A program made the translations under genes and the position numbers. The notes under the pieces are model-generated. The model was given only the letters and a program-made list of their open reading frames with translations, did not search any database and was not told the DNA's origin. From Thermoplasmatales archaeon (lineage in GTDB: Archaea > Thermoplasmatota > Penumbrarchaeia > Penumbrarchaeales > Penumbrarchaeaceae): a DNA stretch of 48,850 bases. Position 1 is the first letter of the stretch. The number at the start of each line of letters is the position of its first letter. Positions 19,310 through 27,027 of this stretch are shown piece by piece. The DNA lies in the NCBI GenBank assembly GCA_030595715.1, contig JAUVCN010000005.1:1-48850 (forward strand), given 5' to 3'.

Positions 19310-20047
19310 ATGGGAATTGATGTGATCGTACTGGCAGGAGGTTTTGCAAAGAGAATGTGGCCCCTTACGAAAAATACCCCAAAACACCTGCTGGATATTG
19401 CCGGAAGGCCAATGTTGAGCTATACACTCGATACCCTTGTTGAGATGGATGGGATAGATACGATCTATGTATCCACCAATGAGGCATTCGGAGAACAATT
19501 CTCGGTATTCGTTCTCGAATATCCACCTGATAAGGTGAAATTGATAATTGAGCCTTCACCAACCGAGGACAGGAAACTAGGGTCGATAGGTGGACTCGGT
19601 TATCTGATCGAAAAGGAGAAAATGTGCAAGGATACGATGATCATCGGAGGGGACAATCTTTTCGAGTTCCACCCATCGGAAGCTGTTGACATCTTTGAAA
19701 AAAGGGGAATGGATATTGTCGCAGTTTATGACGTTGGAACCCATGACAGAGCAAAGCTCTACGGGATAGTCGATTCAGGAGAGGACAGCATCATCACAAG
19801 GTTCCTGGAGAAACCCGAAGATCCGCCATCAACCCTTGCCGCAACTGCATTCTATATCTTCAAAGCGGAGACATTGGGACTTGTCCTGAAGTATCTTGAA
19901 GATGGCGGAAAACCGGATGCACTTGGATTCTTCATTACCTATCTTGTTCGGAACAGACCGGTGGTCGCATGGAAGTTCGATGGGAAATGGTTCGATATAG
20001 GTTCGCTTGAGGTTTACCACGAAGCGAATGACTACTTCGAAGCTTGA
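19310..20047 (+). CDS. Sugar-1-phosphate nucleotidyltransferase
   Basis: A 245-residue NTP_transferase protein making a nucleotide-sugar (NDP-glucose or NDP-mannose type). The N-terminal signature is 'VLAGGFAKRMWPLTKNTPKHLL', in which the canonical GTR is replaced by AKR as in several archaeal members; the catalytic Lys is in TPKHLL. The metal Asp is in 'IIGGDNLFEF', and 'RFLEKPEDPPS' and 'KWFDIGSLEVYHEA' match the glucose-1-phosphate thymidylyltransferase branch. There is no C-terminal left-handed beta-helix, so this is the short form. It starts 10 bp after the phosphatase with AGGTG upstream and is the last gene of a three-gene unit. A role in glycosylating the surface protein is plausible but unproven. 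Confidence 0.87.
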   Translation: MGIDVIVLAGGFAKRMWPLTKNTPKHLLDIAGRPMLSYTLDTLVEMDGIDTIYVSTNEAFGEQFSVFVLEYPPDKVKLIIEPSPTEDRKLGSIGGLGYLIEKEKMCKDTMIIGGDNLFEFHPSEAVDIFEKRGMDIVAVYDVGTHDRAKLYGIVDSGEDSIITRFLEKPEDPPSTLAATAFYIFKAETLGLVLKYLEDGGKPDALGFFITYLVRNRPVVAWKFDGKWFDIGSLEVYHEANDYFEA

Positions 20048-20119
20048 TGGATCGATTTATTGTGATGGTTCCCATTATTTGAAGAACTCATTTCGAGAGA
20101 TGGAAGATGGAATACTTTC

Positions 20120-20213
20120 CTATTTAGATTCGTTTTTCACATCCTTGATCATCTCATTGGTGACCTGCTTGATCGTTTGTCTGATCTCGGCACCGAAACG
20201 TTTCTGCTGGATC
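20120..20213 (-). pseudogene. 3' remnant of a gene cut by repeat copy 1
   Basis: On the reverse strand 31 codons read 'RIQQKRFGAEIRQTIKQVTN' and continue '...NESK' to a TAG at 20120-20122, with codon use like the host genes. Upstream the frame meets a TGA exactly at the edge of the 193-bp repeat (20214). This looks like the amphipathic C-terminal tail of a gene whose 5' part was lost when the repeat or island arrived. No matching 5' fragment is visible beyond the second repeat at 24778, so the other half was deleted or lies elsewhere. The parent gene is not recognised. Confidence 0.45.
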
Positions 20214-20406
20214 CTCGGTCAATCCGGCAAAAGTAGTGTGGCGAGGCGTTATGTGTAGTTGGCGAATAAACATGAAAACACCTGGCCACGAAGAAGAATA
20301 GAGTACTCAAGACATATATGAAAAGCAAGAAAAAAGAACTGCTTGATCAAAAATCTCAGTTCTCATTCGCACAGTGATATTTCTTACAAATCTCAGATTT
20401 GGAGAT
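20214..20406 (+). repeat. 193-bp direct repeat, copy 1
   Basis: Starts CTCGGTCAATCCGGC and ends TTTGGAGAT. It is identical to 24585-24777 except for one base (ATATATG versus ATATAAG). It encodes no convincing protein. It contains AGAACTG...CAGTTCT and CAAATCT.AGATTTG inverted repeats, which could act as a terminator for genes on the reverse strand. The last base lies in the stop codon of the lipoprotein gene. It marks the left edge of the AT-rich island. Confidence 0.95.
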
Positions 20407-21179
20407 TATTTTATAGAGTATGACTCTAACTCTTCCATGGTCATAAGTTGACTACCTTCATATTCTACACTCTTTATGTTCATATTAAACTCTGGACAGT
20501 AATAATGAAGTGCATAAGTATCTTGTCCAACAGTATCAACCCTAATTTCATAACATTCAAACGTACCAGCGGGAACAGTTATTTCCTTTTTTCCGAGAAC
20601 TTCATAGTTCTTTGTATAAGTCCCATCACTACTATCTTCATCAACTAATTCCCCATTCAAGTATATTTTCATATCATCGTCACTTTTTTCTTCAATGGAA
20701 AAACTCAATCCTTCTTTAATTTCATATGGAATATTACCGGTAGTTGTATATGAGGTTCTACCCTCCATTCTCATATTAATCCAATCATCATCATTATCAT
20801 ATTTTACTTTAATATTCAATTCAAATTCAACATTGACTAACTCAAAATCACTTTTTCGAATAAACCCCGTTCCGGTTCCATCCCCCTTATCATAATAAAC
20901 CTCATTTACATCATCAGAGTATTCATCGAATTCGAATTCGATATCAACGACAGCCACTTCATCGCCATCATATAAATAACTCTCACTAGTCACAACCATG
21001 GTCATCGATCCAGATCCAAAATCATTATCGGTTATCTTATATATCCACACGTTCCCCATTTTTATAATATCATTATCACTTTCTTTATCATCTGATGAAC
21101 CTATACATCCTGTCATAATCACAGTTATTATCATAATTGACGATATAAAAGTCAATAATTGAAGTTTCTTCACACACAT
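20406..21179 (-). CDS. Secreted lipoprotein of unknown function
   Basis: About 255 residues from the internal start. The first ~25 residues are a lipoprotein signal peptide ending in a lipobox ('ITVIMTGC'), so the Cys would be lipidated and the protein anchored outside the membrane. The mature part is acidic and beta-rich ('VWIYKITDNDFGSGSMTMVV') and ends 'VPAGTFECYEIRVDT ... YYCPEF', a pattern seen in beta-barrel lipoprotein-like domains such as DUF3108-type proteins. The track start at 21416 is wrong: the extra 79 codons span a hairpin and the promoter. A TTTATAAG box at about 21203-21210 and GGGAG favour ATG 21179 or GTG 21173. It is the last gene of the island. Confidence 0.65.
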   Translation of the reverse strand: MCVKKLQLLTFISSIMIITVIMTGCIGSSDDKESDNDIIKMGNVWIYKITDNDFGSGSMTMVVTSESYLYDGDEVAVVDIEFEFDEYSDDVNEVYYDKGDGTGTGFIRKSDFELVNVEFELNIKVKYDNDDDWINMRMEGRTSYTTTGNIPYEIKEGLSFSIEEKSDDDMKIYLNGELVDEDSSDGTYTKNYEVLGKKEITVPAGTFECYEIRVDTVGQDTYALHYYCPEFNMNIKSVEYEGSQLMTMEELESYSIK

Positions 21180-21389
21180 CTCTCCCATAGCATTTAGATT
21201 ACTTATAAATACGAGAGAACGGAACATTTTATGTTGGTGCCTCAGTTGAATAATGTCGATTTTGAACGTGAACCTCATGACCTTACCACCTTTTATTAAA
21301 AACTCGCATATCCGTTTCATCTCAAAACAACGCGTATAATCTATGTAAGTCCACATGTCCATCTTGTGATCCAAACTGTTTTTAAAGTT

Positions 21390-21434
21390 GGATGCGAAGT
21401 TTTGGCGGGTTTGCATGATGCCCGCTCCGCATCC
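21390..21434. other. Nested GC-rich hairpin upstream of the lipoprotein gene
   Basis: GGATGCG (21390-21396) pairs with CGCATCC (21428-21434) and inside it GCGGG (21405-21409) pairs with CCCGC (21421-21425). It stands out as GC-rich in an AT-rich stretch of about 400 bp between two island genes that otherwise holds only the lipoprotein promoter and a terminator. Role unknown; perhaps a remnant of a palindromic element. Confidence 0.5.
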
Positions 21435-21522
21435 TTAAATATAGTTTTGATGAGAAATGATTATCCAAAAAAAAACCAAGATCTGAACAACACATTATGT
21501 TCCGCACTCTAATCCAATAAAT

Positions 21523-21565
21523 AAAATATAGTCATGATGTACAATATTCAACATGACTATATTTT
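21523..21565 (-). terminator. Terminator of the caspase-like operon
   Basis: AAAATATAGTCATG (21523-21536) pairs exactly with CATGACTATATTTT (21552-21565), a 14-bp stem with a 15-nt loop, about 12 bp past the stop of the 308-residue gene. On the reverse strand the stem runs into TTTTATTTATT, as expected for termination. Confidence 0.7.
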
Positions 21566-21576
21566 CTAATAGAGAA

Positions 21577-22503
21577 TTACACATAATAGATTAATGATGT
21601 CCCCCTTGAGTTCGATTTAATTTTTAATTCCCATTTCAAATCTACCTCACTAAAACCATATACATCTGTAGTATGTAAAACCATATTCCAATCAATAACA
21701 GTGTAGGAATCTTCTCCTTTCATTATAGTTGTATTTGCTATTTTCGCCAAAGTTGTATTAATATCATCGATTCTATGGGTGAAATTATTAACATTTGAAA
21801 TAGAAAAAGTAGTATCTCGATAATATTCGATGCTTCCATCTTTTCCAAATTCAATCATAATCTCTCCCTTTGCCCCTGTTACCTTATAGCCATTCACATA
21901 TTGACGATAAACGACTCTCTGATAATCATAGCCAATTAGTTGTTCCTCTCCTGTTGTTGTATTTCCTTTATAAATATAACAAGTGGAAATTTCCTCAATT
22001 TCAACATCTGAATTTTTACCTCTAATATTTTTAATAAAGCTCTTAGCCTTAGATTCCAATGTACTATTTGACATCAGATTTTTCGTTGAGATGATTTCAA
22101 AGCTTGTGTTGTAATATTTTATAGTATTTCCTCTTCCAATAACAAGTCTCTCATTTGAGCCGTTATTTCCATATATATTTTTTACAGCAGTTGAAGTGTA
22201 AATATCCAATTGAGGGTTGGACAAATATTTCTTGGCTAAGTTTAATTCTTCAGTTGAATTATAGACATTTTCCATTTGTGACACAGTAAAGTAATAAGGT
22301 TGTTTGGAAGTGTTACTAGAGAGTTTTGATGTATTTACAAAAACAGAATTAACATTACCTTTAAATAAGGTTATTTCAGTGGTTAAATTCATCTGATTGT
22401 CAGTAGTTTCAATCTTTGGTTGTTCAAATAATACCAATACACCAATTGAAATTAAAGATATTATTAGAATCGTTGTACCCAATCCAATTATTATTTTTTT
22501 CAT
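21577..22503 (-). CDS. Membrane-anchored propeptide-like protein
   Basis: A 308-residue protein with an N-terminal anchor ('KKIIIGLGTTILIISLISIGVLVLF') and a long Asn/Thr-rich extracellular part with many N-x-S/T sites. The middle 'YQRVVYRQYVNGYKVTGAKG' and 'EIMIEFGKDGSIEYYRDT' resemble FTP/PepSY-type propeptide domains, which inhibit or fold secreted peptidases. It starts 12 bp after the stop of the caspase-like gene, with GGAGG upstream, so the two form an operon. A role as separate inhibitor or chaperone of the caspase-like partner is inference from this resemblance and the pairing. A 14-bp-stem terminator follows. Confidence 0.6.
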   Translation of the reverse strand: MKKIIIGLGTTILIISLISIGVLVLFEQPKIETTDNQMNLTTEITLFKGNVNSVFVNTSKLSSNTSKQPYYFTVSQMENVYNSTEELNLAKKYLSNPQLDIYTSTAVKNIYGNNGSNERLVIGRGNTIKYYNTSFEIISTKNLMSNSTLESKAKSFIKNIRGKNSDVEIEEISTCYIYKGNTTTGEEQLIGYDYQRVVYRQYVNGYKVTGAKGEIMIEFGKDGSIEYYRDTTFSISNVNNFTHRIDDINTTLAKIANTTIMKGEDSYTVIDWNMVLHTTDVYGFSEVDLKWELKIKSNSRGTSLIYYV

Positions 22504-22515
22504 TTAGTTCCCTCC

Positions 22516-24393
22516 TTATTTCAACCTCACATAATAAGTGCTATCATTCGAGCTTTCATCGGATGACCAACTATTAGAATTAGTTTCTACATCCCATAGT
22601 TGATCACTATTTGCTTGCCAGCTCGTATCCCAAATTGAGGCCCAAGGTTGTGCTGAGAACGCTCTTTCGAATGCAAGAGCGAATGTTGTTCCAGATGTTA
22701 ACTCATCAATAAAATCCTGATATGTTGAGAAGTCGTCCCAACTCACGTCTGTAAACCCAAGTATTGCATGGTTTTTATATAAACCGCTTTTTGCCCATTC
22801 GGCTCTTTGTTGTCCGCCAATATCTGCGTTTCCTAAGATTTCACAAGCATATAGGAAGACAATTTCTGTCTCAGACCCCCAGTTCCCAATATCATCATCA
22901 TCAACATTTTGGTTTCTAGTCAATGATAAATAAGTATCCCATAAACCCTGTACTCCATGACCTGAATGAATGACAAAATCATTAGATCTAACGTCATCAT
23001 TGTTTGTTCCATCAAAATCTGATCTATCAACAGCATCATCAATTTCATCTCTAAAAAGGAAAAGTCGACTGTCATAGTTTTCTGTGAGTTCATAGTTCAT
23101 CAAATAATAATATGCGTCGGGAAGATCTGATGCGGAATCATAATCTGACTGATAATAAAAAAGTAATTCGATGTTATAACCACCACCACCAGCAATTTTC
23201 AAATTCGTGAATTCAATTCTAGCTCCATTTGATGAATGTAACCAACTCCCCGTCAATATTAATTCAATTTGAATATATTTTGCATTGAATTCTGATGGGT
23301 TCCCTATTGAAAGTGTTCCAGAAGATTGTGGAGCTACGTATTTATTAGGAGCAGTAACAGTATTGTAATCGATAAATTGGTTCGTATCAGTTCCAAGCAA
23401 TGACCTACTTGCATCATAATAATGAACTTTAAAATACCCCCTATATACCATACTTCCGGCGGTGTTCCAATATTCACGATTGTAGTCAATCTGAAAATTC
23501 CCCACATAGTTCTTCAATGTAGAATGTTCATTATTGAAATATAAAAATGGTGTTCTTGCCTTTACTGTCCCATAATCATTGCCATTTGCAGCTCCATTCC
23601 GAAGCTCGAGTTTGACTAATCCACCTGTAGGGCAATATTTTCCCAATGTGACTGCAGAATCACCTTTTGAATATTCAGTCCCAGCGAACAAATTGTATTT
23701 CAGGTCAATATTAGTATAAAGAATTTTCACACCATCAACTGAATAAAGCCATGAACCTTCTGTTACGAAAATAATTTTTATATATGATATACCGTCATTT
23801 GTAATTGAATAAGTGGTGCTTCCCGCGGAATGGAGATCCCCATCGTCATCTGGTGCGGTAGTATAGGAATTGAAAGTATCATATCTTACAACATAATTGA
23901 CACTAGATTGACTCACAACATTATTTGAGCTGTCATATCCAATAATTCTAAAATATGATCTACAAATCATCGAGGTACTAGTGCTCCAATAATCGCACCT
24001 ATAATCTGCACTTAAAGTAATGGTGTATGAGAATGGAGACTGTGTCTTAGGTATGAAAATCTTATGAGATGTGGCTTTCATCGATCCATAATCCTGACCA
24101 CTAACCATAACTCCATTTCCAATAACTTTTTCAATGATACCAATGTTTGAGGATTCATCGCCAACAACCCCATTTGCATCTTTATCACAATCATAAACCA
24201 CAGCTGTTCCTCGATCAGATTCATCGAAATTAAACGATGTTCCGTATCTTGATTCCCAAATTGGTTCATGATAATATTTATTCTCATATTCGATATGAGC
24301 TGCATCCTCTGTTTCTGCATTTCCAGAAATCGTAACAATGAAAATGGAGAAAACCATCGTCGTCACGACTAATAAATATTTCCAATGGCTCAT
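22516..24393 (-). CDS. Secreted caspase-like (His-Cys dyad) protein with duplicated beta domains
   Basis: A 625-residue exported protein; residues 7-25 form a signal peptide ('LLVVTTMVFSIFIVTISG'). Two homologous ~130-residue beta domains follow (about 95-230 and 265-400), sharing 'DYGSMKA/DYGTVKA', 'DYWSTSTSMICRSYF/EYWNTAGSMVYRGYF' and 'TEGSWLYSVDG/TGSWLHSSNG'. The C-terminal domain (about 405-600) has 'FVIHSGHG' (His479) and 'VFLYACEIL' (Cys517), the two hydrophobic-strand motifs of clan CD (caspase/gingipain/CHAT) enzymes, and recalls the uncharacterised DUF6345 family. It is first in an operon with the propeptide-like gene. AATATATAAATG upstream and GGTGA 7 nt before the ATG support the start. 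Peptidase activity is inference. Confidence 0.7.
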   Translation of the reverse strand: MSHWKYLLVVTTMVFSIFIVTISGNAETEDAAHIEYENKYYHEPIWESRYGTSFNFDESDRGTAVVYDCDKDANGVVGDESSNIGIIEKVIGNGVMVSGQDYGSMKATSHKIFIPKTQSPFSYTITLSADYRCDYWSTSTSMICRSYFRIIGYDSSNNVVSQSSVNYVVRYDTFNSYTTAPDDDGDLHSAGSTTYSITNDGISYIKIIFVTEGSWLYSVDGVKILYTNIDLKYNLFAGTEYSKGDSAVTLGKYCPTGGLVKLELRNGAANGNDYGTVKARTPFLYFNNEHSTLKNYVGNFQIDYNREYWNTAGSMVYRGYFKVHYYDASRSLLGTDTNQFIDYNTVTAPNKYVAPQSSGTLSIGNPSEFNAKYIQIELILTGSWLHSSNGARIEFTNLKIAGGGGYNIELLFYYQSDYDSASDLPDAYYYLMNYELTENYDSRLFLFRDEIDDAVDRSDFDGTNNDDVRSNDFVIHSGHGVQGLWDTYLSLTRNQNVDDDDIGNWGSETEIVFLYACEILGNADIGGQQRAEWAKSGLYKNHAILGFTDVSWDDFSTYQDFIDELTSGTTFALAFERAFSAQPWASIWDTSWQANSDQLWDVETNSNSWSSDESSNDSTYYVRLK

Positions 24394-24424
24394 TTATTTC
24401 ACCTACTATATTATCTTTGTGCAT

Positions 24425-24433
24425 TTATATATT
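24425..24433 (-). promoter_or_regulatory. TATA box of the caspase-like operon
   Basis: ATATATAAA on the reverse strand about 32-40 bp before the ATG at 24393, giving a short leader that contains GGTGA. Confidence 0.5.
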
Positions 24434-24584
24434 CCATTAATTGACTATATAAACAAACTTATATTTTGCACCTCTGCGAATGGGGGTGTATTTATATTTT
24501 TCTGCTTCCTTTTTTAAAAATGTGTTATCACAACACATCTGCGACAATGAGTTCGAGATGATATCCAACTCCATCTTATCATAA

Positions 24585-24777
24585 CTCGGTCAATCCGGCA
24601 AAAGTAGTGTGGCGAGGCGTTATGTGTAGTTGGCGAATAAACATGAAAACACCTGGCCACGAAGAAGAATAGAGTACTCAAGACATATAAGAAAAGCAAG
24701 AAAAAAGAACTGCTTGATCAAAAATCTCAGTTCTCATTCGCACAGTGATATTTCTTACAAATCTCAGATTTGGAGAT
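24585..24777 (+). repeat. 193-bp direct repeat, copy 2
   Basis: Matches copy 1 at 192 of 193 positions, in the same orientation, and marks the right edge of the island. Before it (24520-24540) is an ATGTGTT/AACACAT hairpin. The 24394-25044 gap also holds the operon promoter and the possible inverted-repeat element at 24784-25013; I see no gene in it. Confidence 0.95.
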
Positions 24778-24783
24778 CTTTCT

Positions 24784-25013
24784 ATTGACCCCCAATTCCG
24801 GCAAAGGGCCATTAAATCTCATATGGCACATAATAGGAGAATAAATGACATAATATTGACATTATTAGATATATTGAATAAGATCCATTTCCACATGAGT
24901 ATTATCTTGCAATAGTATTTTACTTCCAAATCAATATGACATTGCGGAGATACCCTCATCATTTCCCTTCCTGGCATATTATTATGATGTCCTTTCACAC
25001 ATTTGGGGTCAAT
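24784..25013. repeat. Possible small inverted-repeat element
   Basis: ATTGACCCCCAAT (24784-24796) is matched at 12 of 13 positions by the inverted copy ATTTGGGGTCAAT (25001-25013). The 230-bp AT-rich interval has no reading frame of note. It could be a MITE-like element next to the island, or chance. Confidence 0.3.
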
Positions 25014-25044
25014 GGTTCAGATCCTCAATAAAAATGGAGATGGA

Positions 25045-26280
25045 TCACTTTAATATATTGAGGGATCCTTTTTTTGCTATTTTCAGAATGTCCCCTGCTC
25101 CAAGGATCTTGACCTCATCATCTTCAATATCCAATTTCTCCTTGGAAATAAAGATCTTGTTGCAATACAGATCACTGACCTTATCTTTGAAGACCTCTAG
25201 GTCCTTTCCATTGCTTTTTCCCCATTTGACCTCTCCAACGAGGAAAGGCTTGTTCCTCTTTGTTATAAAAATGTCGATCTCCCTATCAGGTTCCTTAACC
25301 AATTCCACCCTTCCTTCCACGATCTCGGCAATGAATTCACATAAAAATTCCTCAACTGCCAATTGATTGAGTTTGTCAATGGTTGGTTTTATCTCTCCGT
25401 GTTGGATCTCACGATCCTCAAGATTGTAACTTGACTCAAGATAATAATAGAGTTTCATCACGTGTGATGTCAATCTGTAAACGGACTTTCTGCTCTTGTA
25501 TTTTTTATATTTTTTCAGCAGACCCATCTTTTTAAGATTGCTCAGATATGGCAATATACTTGGAGAATAGGGTTGAGTTATTATCCCACGGTCATAAAGG
25601 ATCTTGGCGATCCGATTGTAATCATCCATTCCGGAACCTACCAGAGATATGATAGACTCATAGGTCCTTGTCAATTCCCTTTCCTCCTCAGAGAACACCT
25701 CTCCAACGAGTCCTGGTACCACATATTTGAGGGTTGGGATGATCAGAGAGAGATCCTTACATTTTTCAAGTAGAGGAATTGTCCACGGATCCATCATATA
25801 GGGAGATAAAGATATTGTCTCAACAGGGTCCATATGCTCTGATAAACCATTGATGATATCGATAGGTCCTATCAGGGGTATCCTTACAGGATAGAGAAGT
25901 CCAAGCAAAGGGGATCTGTTAGAGAGGACCTTATCAACAATTTTCAGACTTGACCCGGATAGGATCAAATTTCCATAAGGATGTGAGAGTGCGATCTCAT
26001 CCCACAGGTTCATTGAAAGCCTCTGGAATTCGTCGATAACGATCGTCTCTCCGTCCATGAGCATTTTTTTCAGGTCCTTGATGAAGCTGGAAAGATCATT
26101 ATATTCCCGAGATGTTTCACCCTCCATCAGGATGGAACCGCCCCTCTTGACAAGGAAGAATCGATCATGGTCCAGAAAATTATTCAGCAAGAAAGTCTTA
26201 CCAACCTTCCTCCTGCCAAAAACAAGTAACCAACCACCAAGGTTGGAGAGTTGGGCGACCTCGGATCTATGAACCAGCAT
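25045..26280 (-). CDS. Archaeal AAA ATPase with DUF234-type nuclease-like tail
   Basis: A 411-residue member of the archaeal ATPase group common in thermophile and euryarchaeal genomes. Walker A is GRRKVGKTFLL near residue 25, Walker B 'ETIVIDEFQRL' near 80, and sensor-like 'LILSGSSLKI' follows. A winged-helix region (about 205-265) precedes the C-terminal domain with 'DREIDIFITKRNKPFLVGEVKWGK', a PD-(D/E)xK pattern (E-I-D ... G-E-V-K). Function is unknown; nucleic-acid processing or defence has been suggested for the group. The track starts at TTG 26298, but GGAGG 7 nt before the ATG at 26280 fixes the start. A palindrome covers its transcription start. It lies 270 bp from the island. Confidence 0.85.
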   Translation of the reverse strand: MLVHRSEVAQLSNLGGWLLVFGRRKVGKTFLLNNFLDHDRFFLVKRGGSILMEGETSREYNDLSSFIKDLKKMLMDGETIVIDEFQRLSMNLWDEIALSHPYGNLILSGSSLKIVDKVLSNRSPLLGLLYPVRIPLIGPIDIINGLSEHMDPVETISLSPYMMDPWTIPLLEKCKDLSLIIPTLKYVVPGLVGEVFSEEERELTRTYESIISLVGSGMDDYNRIAKILYDRGIITQPYSPSILPYLSNLKKMGLLKKYKKYKSRKSVYRLTSHVMKLYYYLESSYNLEDREIQHGEIKPTIDKLNQLAVEEFLCEFIAEIVEGRVELVKEPDREIDIFITKRNKPFLVGEVKWGKSNGKDLEVFKDKVSDLYCNKIFISKEKLDIEDDEVKILGAGDILKIAKKGSLNILK

Positions 26281-26281
26281 T

Positions 26282-26313
26282 ATTGAACCTCCGTTCAATA
26301 ATCACGGTTCAAT
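26282..26313 (-). promoter_or_regulatory. Operator-like palindrome at the ATPase promoter
   Basis: ATTGAACC (26282-26289) and GGTTCAAT (26306-26313) form an exact 8-bp inverted repeat, with a third partial copy (ATTGAACGG) between. It lies between the TATA box (TTTATATATT, about 26316-26326) and the ATG, and includes the GGAGG ribosome site. A repressor bound here would cover the transcription start; if the start is further upstream than I predict, the RNA could instead hide the ribosome site. Confidence 0.55.
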
Positions 26314-26331
26314 GAATATATAAATCTTTCC

Positions 26332-27027
26332 TTAGATGATCTTGCCAGTCGATGTGATCCTTATGATCGTCCCATCGATATGATATGTCAACTGGACATT
26401 CTTCTGCTGGACAGAGAACTTCTTCACCTGGATGGTGTGATAGATGCCCTCTATGATCCTGACCGTGTCAAGTTCCATCAGTCCATCGAACTTGTCGATG
26501 ATCGACTGCATATCCCTCTCCGGAAGTATATCTGCCATCAAGAACACTACAGCAATATTCTTCCTCATCGCGACCTCCCTGACCATGATCACAAAGTCAC
26601 CAGCATCCTTGTAACCGAACTTCTCAACGAAGAAGGTAAATGGATTGATAAGGACCCTGTTCACTTTATTCTCATCAAGACCTCTCATGTGTTCGATTAT
26701 TCTTGCGGGAGCCGCCTGGATGAAAAACTTGGAGTATTCCGGACAGGCATTGACGAATTGAAGGTTCTTCATTAGGTCGGAACTGACCTCTTCTTCCATC
26801 AGGTCGAGGATCTCATCCGAGGAAGCTTCCACATCATAAAATGCAACCTGTTCGCCTTTTTCCAGTCCCTCGAGAATATAGCGAAACCCGAACAGGTCCT
26901 TCCTTGAAGAAGGATCGCCAACGAAAAGGTTGATGGTCCCTTTCTTCAACCCGCCATAATGTAAAGCTTCATCAAGTCGGGGGATCCCGCTTGAGACGAC
27001 CTCTTTCTTTCGTCTAACCTTTGACAT
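26332..27027 (-). CDS. KaiC-like RecA-fold protein with degenerate P-loop
   Basis: A 231-residue single-domain KaiC/RadA-like protein. The opening 'SSGIPRLDEALHYGGLKKGT' and 'INLFVGDPSS' match the KaiC pattern (G-x-x-x-LD-x-x-L-x-GG-x-x-x-G), but the Walker A region reads GDPSSRKDLFGF where GxxxxGK(T/S) is expected, so ATP binding is doubtful. A Walker-B-like strand 'VNRVLINPFTFF' and 'VAVVFLMADI'-type strands complete the fold. Such degenerate members may act as scaffolds or regulators; the function here is unknown. A TATA-like TAAATAACC about 25 bp upstream implies a leaderless ATG at 27027, and an inverted repeat lies over the start site. Confidence 0.75.
   Translation of the reverse strand: MSKVRRKKEVVSSGIPRLDEALHYGGLKKGTINLFVGDPSSRKDLFGFRYILEGLEKGEQVAFYDVEASSDEILDLMEEEVSSDLMKNLQFVNACPEYSKFFIQAAPARIIEHMRGLDENKVNRVLINPFTFFVEKFGYKDAGDFVIMVREVAMRKNIAVVFLMADILPERDMQSIIDKFDGLMELDTVRIIEGIYHTIQVKKFSVQQKNVQLTYHIDGTIIRITSTGKII

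Follow-up and report, generated by a model that had tools for sequence, protein, structure and literature searches.

A secreted caspase-like protein of the DUF6345 family and its propeptide-like membrane partner: an apparent two-gene module in Thermoplasmatota archaea

Where secreted peptidases are known to carry an FTP/PepSY propeptide, this part commonly has two functions, as it both folds the enzyme and inhibits it. Some secreted cysteine peptidases are, for their part, encoded next to a small gene for a propeptide analogue or an inhibitor, as in SpeB-Spi and in the C10 peptidases of Bacteroides; in the latter, the inhibitor genes lie within 35 bp and two of the protease genes are carried by mobile elements (PMC2873492). 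A PepSY protein can also accompany a hydrolase in one operon, as in the SleB-YpeB system, where YpeB gives SleB its stability and perhaps also keeps it inactive (PMC6660665). The peptidases of clan CD share as hallmark a His/Cys dyad in which the His precedes the Cys and has a Gly beside it (PMC4357240). We describe here an archaeal locus in which a protein with such a His/Cys pair is encoded next to a propeptide-like membrane protein.

The locus belongs to a Thermoplasmatales archaeon (assembly GCA_030595715.1, contig JAUVCN010000005.1), positions 1 to 48,850 of this contig, that is the whole stretch of 48,850 nucleotides that was analysed, being called the window. Two open reading frames of the minus strand form the pair: the gene of the caspase-like protein (22516-24393, 625 aa) and that of its partner (21577-22503, 308 aa), which starts 12 bp after the stop of the former. 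A sequence-only reading had described these two genes, their spacing and a His/Cys pair placed after two duplicated beta domains, all of which the open reading frames and the comparison of the domains bear out. The 625-aa protein begins with a predicted signal peptide (about aa 1-26, 24316-24393, with a hydropathy peak at aa 6-24), continues with beta domain 1 (about aa 40-235, 23689-24276) and beta domain 2 (about aa 236-400, 23194-23688), which are duplicates of one another (32% identity over 151 aa, E=2e-20), and ends with a domain (aa 401-625, 22516-23193) carrying the predicted catalytic His479 (GHG in IHSGHG, codon 22957-22959) and Cys517 (YAC in LYACEIL, codon 22843-22845). Homologues at 38-39% identity are found in two genomes of the same archaeal order (G003 and G008). 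A third related protein, from G030 (L012:4047-8495, an open frame of 1483 codons), carries one or more CUB domains ahead of its DUF6345-type domain, in the place of beta domain 2.

By profile comparison, the C-terminal domain is a member of DUF6345 (PF19872). A whole-genome profile search gave the window protein 28.6 bits, above the curated cut-off of 26.9 bits, and filtered hmmscan gave no DUF6345 match for it; relatives match the Pfam model at 4.5e-6 and 1.7e-5 (26.7 and 24.9 bits), and the window group, with the proteins of G003, G008 and G030, reaches 97.3% in hhalign against the other DUF6345 members. Queried with the window peptidase as a single sequence, Pfam, NCBIfam and PDB yielded no matches, including to Pfam C14 (PF00656) or C25 (PF01364), and PADLOC and PHROG yielded nothing useful. 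As a query against genome contigs, the window domain found no match and the A2 alignment three loci. No relative of the window domain was found in the viral contigs, plasmids and phages scanned with it or with its relatives, nor did a related DUF6345 fusion used as query match any phage. No mention of DUF6345 was found in the literature searched.

A survey of 390 Thermoplasmatota genomes identified 16 DUF6345-type genes in 13 genomes. Downstream of twelve of these 16 genes, at most 20 bp away and in the same orientation, lies a gene encoding a homologue of the partner, although several partners were first recognised by their position, so that this count alone is partly circular (in G030, the listed partner start overlaps the upstream gene and a later Met leaves a short gap). 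In three others the two parts are fused, the partner part being N-terminal in G213 and C-terminal in G072 and G254, while the C-terminal part of the last protein (G183) is unmatched by the partner profiles. A protein encoded by a Deinococcus plasmid also carries in one chain a DUF6345 domain and, at its N end, a partner domain, preceded by a lipoprotein-like N terminus. The co-occurrence expected by the sequence-only reading is therefore observed, and the 12 adjacent and three fused cases indicate that DUF6345 and its partner form a real and conserved module, apparently an undescribed one. The idea of a split propeptide fits in part: as fusions occur at either end, a partner with its own gene is but one arrangement out of three, and a classic N-terminal propeptide that is cleaved off does not fit them all.

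The partner family was also recognised from its sequence. The window partner as sole query found the partners beside the caspase-like genes in G003 and G030; the A4 partner profile, built without the fused members, recovers the C-terminal part of the fusions in G072 (6e-21) and G254 (2e-15); and a second partner profile, with Deinococcus left out of its training, finds the fused part of the Deinococcus protein at 2e-5. Forty control loci taken from the surroundings of C25 and C14 peptidases, 141 kb in all, gave no partner match. The pairwise distances of the peptidases and of the partners are correlated (r=0.66, permutation p=0.0002), a correlation that species descent can also yield, and pairs are duplicated as units, with two in G057 and three in G256. 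Partner homologues also occur alone (G002, G003:C64, G008:C21 and G177) or at contig ends (G004 and G020), and some of the lone ones may therefore do other work. In G256, a gene for a NosD-like repeat protein, which has a hydrophobic segment at its C terminus, comes after two of the three pairs (L040:6832-7767 and L044:7091-8410). In G253, the DUF6345 gene (L045:4783-5609) is broken across frames next to an intact partner gene, by decay or by assembly error.

As the relatives keep the two genes side by side or fused, they probably specify one controlled enzyme. Our main reading, to which we give a probability of about 60%, is that the pair would act as one unit made of a latent secreted cysteine peptidase with a caspase fold and of its cognate membrane-tethered propeptide-like regulator. 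DUF6345 would be the peptidase domain, of clan CD fold and presumably catalysing by its His/Cys dyad, and the beta domains would be targeting or substrate-binding modules. The FTP/PepSY-type domain of the partner, anchored in the membrane on the outer side, would bind the newly exported peptidase, aid its folding and keep it latent at the surface of the cell; cleavage or dissociation of the partner, in response to some trigger, would end this latency.

Several features of the partner are consistent with such a location. It has a single hydrophobic segment, at its N terminus (predicted transmembrane anchor, aa 8-26, 22426-22482, hydropathy 2.57), as has every examined partner with an intact N terminus. 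It also contains 11 N-x-S/T sequons versus one in the peptidase, a number in keeping with a position outside the cell. The sequence-only reading had seen in it a propeptide-like protein on a membrane anchor. Taken alone, the window partner scores 13.6 bits (0.063) with Pfam FTP, below the cut-off of 21 bits; the resemblance is real and becomes clear only once relatives are added, since the family alignment displays an FTP-like segment with the pattern NGxxVxGxxGxIxxxxGxxG followed by a PepSY-like segment. These correspond in the window to about aa 142-230 (21814-22080, QYVNGYKVTGAKGEIMIEFGKDG) and, as judged from the pattern, about aa 232-308 (21580-21810). Among the weak sequence matches in PDB is 4k90_B (E=0.35), which comes from an extracellular metalloproteinase of fungalysin type. 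An FTP/PepSY-type fold is cystatin-like, with a helix and an antiparallel sheet. In the AlphaFold model of a natural fusion (overall pLDDT 45), the domain homologous to the partner, from about residue 495 on, is modelled better than the other folded parts (block pLDDT 41-89), with the order H-E-E-H-E-E-E-E, and the top Foldseek match of this weak model is the PepSY region of YpeB (probability 0.98, E=6e-3), with caspases among the next ones. Profile comparisons of the partner subfamilies give 97.5% between the window type, which also adjoins caspase-like genes in G003, G008 and G030, and the G057 type, 97.0% for the G256 type, 95% for G039 and 92.6% for the N-terminal part of the G213 and Deinococcus fusions, with at most 0.4% for the reversed controls of one set of these comparisons, and indicate that all these partner subfamilies are one superfamily.

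The partner could instead be chiefly a foldase or a tether that leaves the active site of the enzyme unblocked, a reading that we consider unlikely in view of the dual role of the known FTP/PepSY propeptides. It would account for the single N-terminal hydrophobic segment of the partners and for the lipoprotein-like N terminus of the Deinococcus fusion, and it has a parallel in SleB, the stability of which requires YpeB (PMC6660665).

The identity of the enzyme itself, which the sequence-only reading had called clan CD-like, is upheld by profile homology. Of the aligned cores of divergent DUF6345-type relatives, 15/15 retain the His and 14/15 the Cys, GHG (with small variants) and xxC being found together in 14 of the 15 cores, and the Deinococcus homologue keeps both residues; this retention far exceeds what chance motifs would give. 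Profile comparison of DUF6345 with the C14 caspases gives 95% in hhalign, versus at most 0.5% for reversed-profile controls, whereas that with the C25 gingipains gives only 16-36%, so that kinship with C25 is weak. An HMM trained solely on DUF6345 members retrieves two C14 caspases, L046 (3e-7) and L107 (9e-7), and the DUF6345 model of Pfam itself matches L046 at 3e-4; in the alignment with L046, the GHG and the strand bearing the Cys are both in register. (The DUF6345 matches of G168 and G224 were C14 caspases and were left out of the DUF6345 set.) As DUF6345 profiles thus recognise C14 caspases with the His and Cys in register, DUF6345 is most likely an undescribed family of clan CD peptidases, and its caspase fold is likely.

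Structure prediction is consistent with this fold at low confidence. The AlphaFold models, both made from too few sequences, have a pLDDT of 38 for the window domain (five sequences) and of 45 for the natural fusion. The order of strands and helices in these models fits the caspase type. In clan CD peptidases, the dyad sits where strands 3 and 4 of the caspase/haemoglobinase fold end; the predicted strands 73-78 and 111-117 of the window domain end at His79 and Cys117 (domain numbering), two residues that may share one pocket. Foldseek lists caspases among the matches of the weak models (probability 0.6-0.8, E about 0.1), with equal scores for flavodoxin-like folds, and retrieved no match below 1e-3 with the AlphaFold models. 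Such scores would also suit a DUF6345 domain that is an inactive caspase-fold domain or another alpha/beta binding domain, the pair then forming a surface complex for adhesion or sensing. The G039 member (L041:4881-5666) has lost the catalytic Cys (DSSH) and keeps its partner gene, so that at least one DUF6345 protein cannot be a cysteine peptidase. As a reading of the whole family, however, an inactive domain seems distinctly improbable, given the conservation of the His and the Cys in nearly all of the very divergent members, Deinococcus included, and the significant in-register similarity to C14 caspases.

The GC content of the window pair is 34%, versus 44-47% in most flanks. In a relative, G005, the genes of a nucleotidyltransferase (19310-20047 in the window) and of a KaiC-like protein (26332-27027) are only 37 bp apart, an empty junction which implies that the window carries there a 6.3-kb insertion (20048-26331). 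The pair is likewise lacking at this place in G003 and G006, G003 having one elsewhere. Within the insertion, two direct repeats of 204 nt (20214-20417 and 24585-24788), which are 98% identical and have no other copy in the genome, bound a GC-poor unit of 4.6 kb made of both pair genes and of a third gene, which encodes a DUF3108-like lipoprotein (20406-21416, minus strand; Pfam DUF3108_like, 8.6e-6). No integrase was recognised for the 6.3-kb insertion. The insertion also includes, on the minus strand, a gene for an AAA_14/DUF234-like ATPase (25045-26298; Pfam AAA_14, 1.2e-7), which is absent from the G005 junction and weakly matches the PADLOC candidate models PDC-S01 and PDC-S27. The mobile appearance noted from the sequence thus agrees with the composition, the repeats and the empty junction, and the pair was likely acquired horizontally.

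Two linked genes within an insertion that has flanking repeats could also form a toxin/immunity system, as the sequence-only reading had suggested, in which the secreted caspase-like protein would attack neighbouring cells and the membrane partner would protect the producer. Polymorphic toxin systems do include caspase-like toxins (PMC3482391), and the N-terminal domains vary here, from CUB in G030 to other beta domains in the window. No delivery module, toxin repeats or variable toxin tip was recognised, however, PADLOC has no match for either protein, and the partner domain is part of the same chain in G072, G254, G213 and Deinococcus, which would be unusual for an immunity protein; we regard this reading as very unlikely. 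A role in defence was dropped, since the two are exported proteins and no defence model matched either of them.

A latent peptidase with its own regulator would give a testable identity to DUF6345, a family of unassigned function, and would link caspase-fold peptidases to a type of regulator that metallopeptidases and enzymes of spores are known to have, while the natural fused and split versions offer material on the interconversion of inhibitor domains and separate regulators. Thermoplasmatota are rich in secreted clan CD peptidases, with 14 Peptidase_C25 (gingipain) matches in the genome of the window and some in 56 of the 116 genomes sampled from the phylum, and no account of how these peptidases stay inactive was found in the literature searched. 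More broadly and more tentatively, at somewhat less than even odds, DUF6345 may be an undescribed clan CD family, present in archaea and at least one bacterium, whose latency depends on an FTP/PepSY-type domain located at its N or C terminus or encoded, with a membrane anchor, by a separate gene, and that moves horizontally as a two-gene cassette.

Compared with described families, the window domain passes the curated threshold of Pfam DUF6345 in the genome search and has its His and Cys at the same positions, but it belongs to a divergent subgroup, and the Pfam entry has no function. With the C14 caspases and C25 gingipains, it shares a His preceding the Cys, a Gly beside the His and, in the weak models, the order of the predicted strands and helices, and with C14 a significant profile similarity; it differs from both as DUF6345 is a separate family and as its regulator in the window is encoded by another gene. 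The core pattern of the partner and its fungalysin match recall the FTP/PepSY propeptides of M4 peptidases and fungalysins, but the partner falls below the Pfam cut-off, is linked to a cysteine-peptidase-like protein and is mostly a separate membrane protein. Like SpeB-Spi and the Bacteroides C10 systems, the window pair consists of adjacent, co-directional genes, some of those in Bacteroides being borne by mobile elements; unlike DUF6345, however, the C10 peptidases are not members of clan CD, and Spi is not described as a membrane-anchored FTP/PepSY protein (PMC2873492). SleB-YpeB likewise associates a secreted hydrolase with a PepSY-domain protein, which ranks first among the structural matches of the weak fusion model, but SleB lyses the spore cortex and is not a peptidase, and the system is restricted to bacterial spores. 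These precedents work alike and their enzymes are not relatives of DUF6345; by analogy, the role of the partner would most likely resemble that of Spi for SpeB or of YpeB for SleB. The plan of a protease with a separate propeptide-like regulator is already known, and the present pair adds to it a version in which the enzyme likely has a caspase fold.
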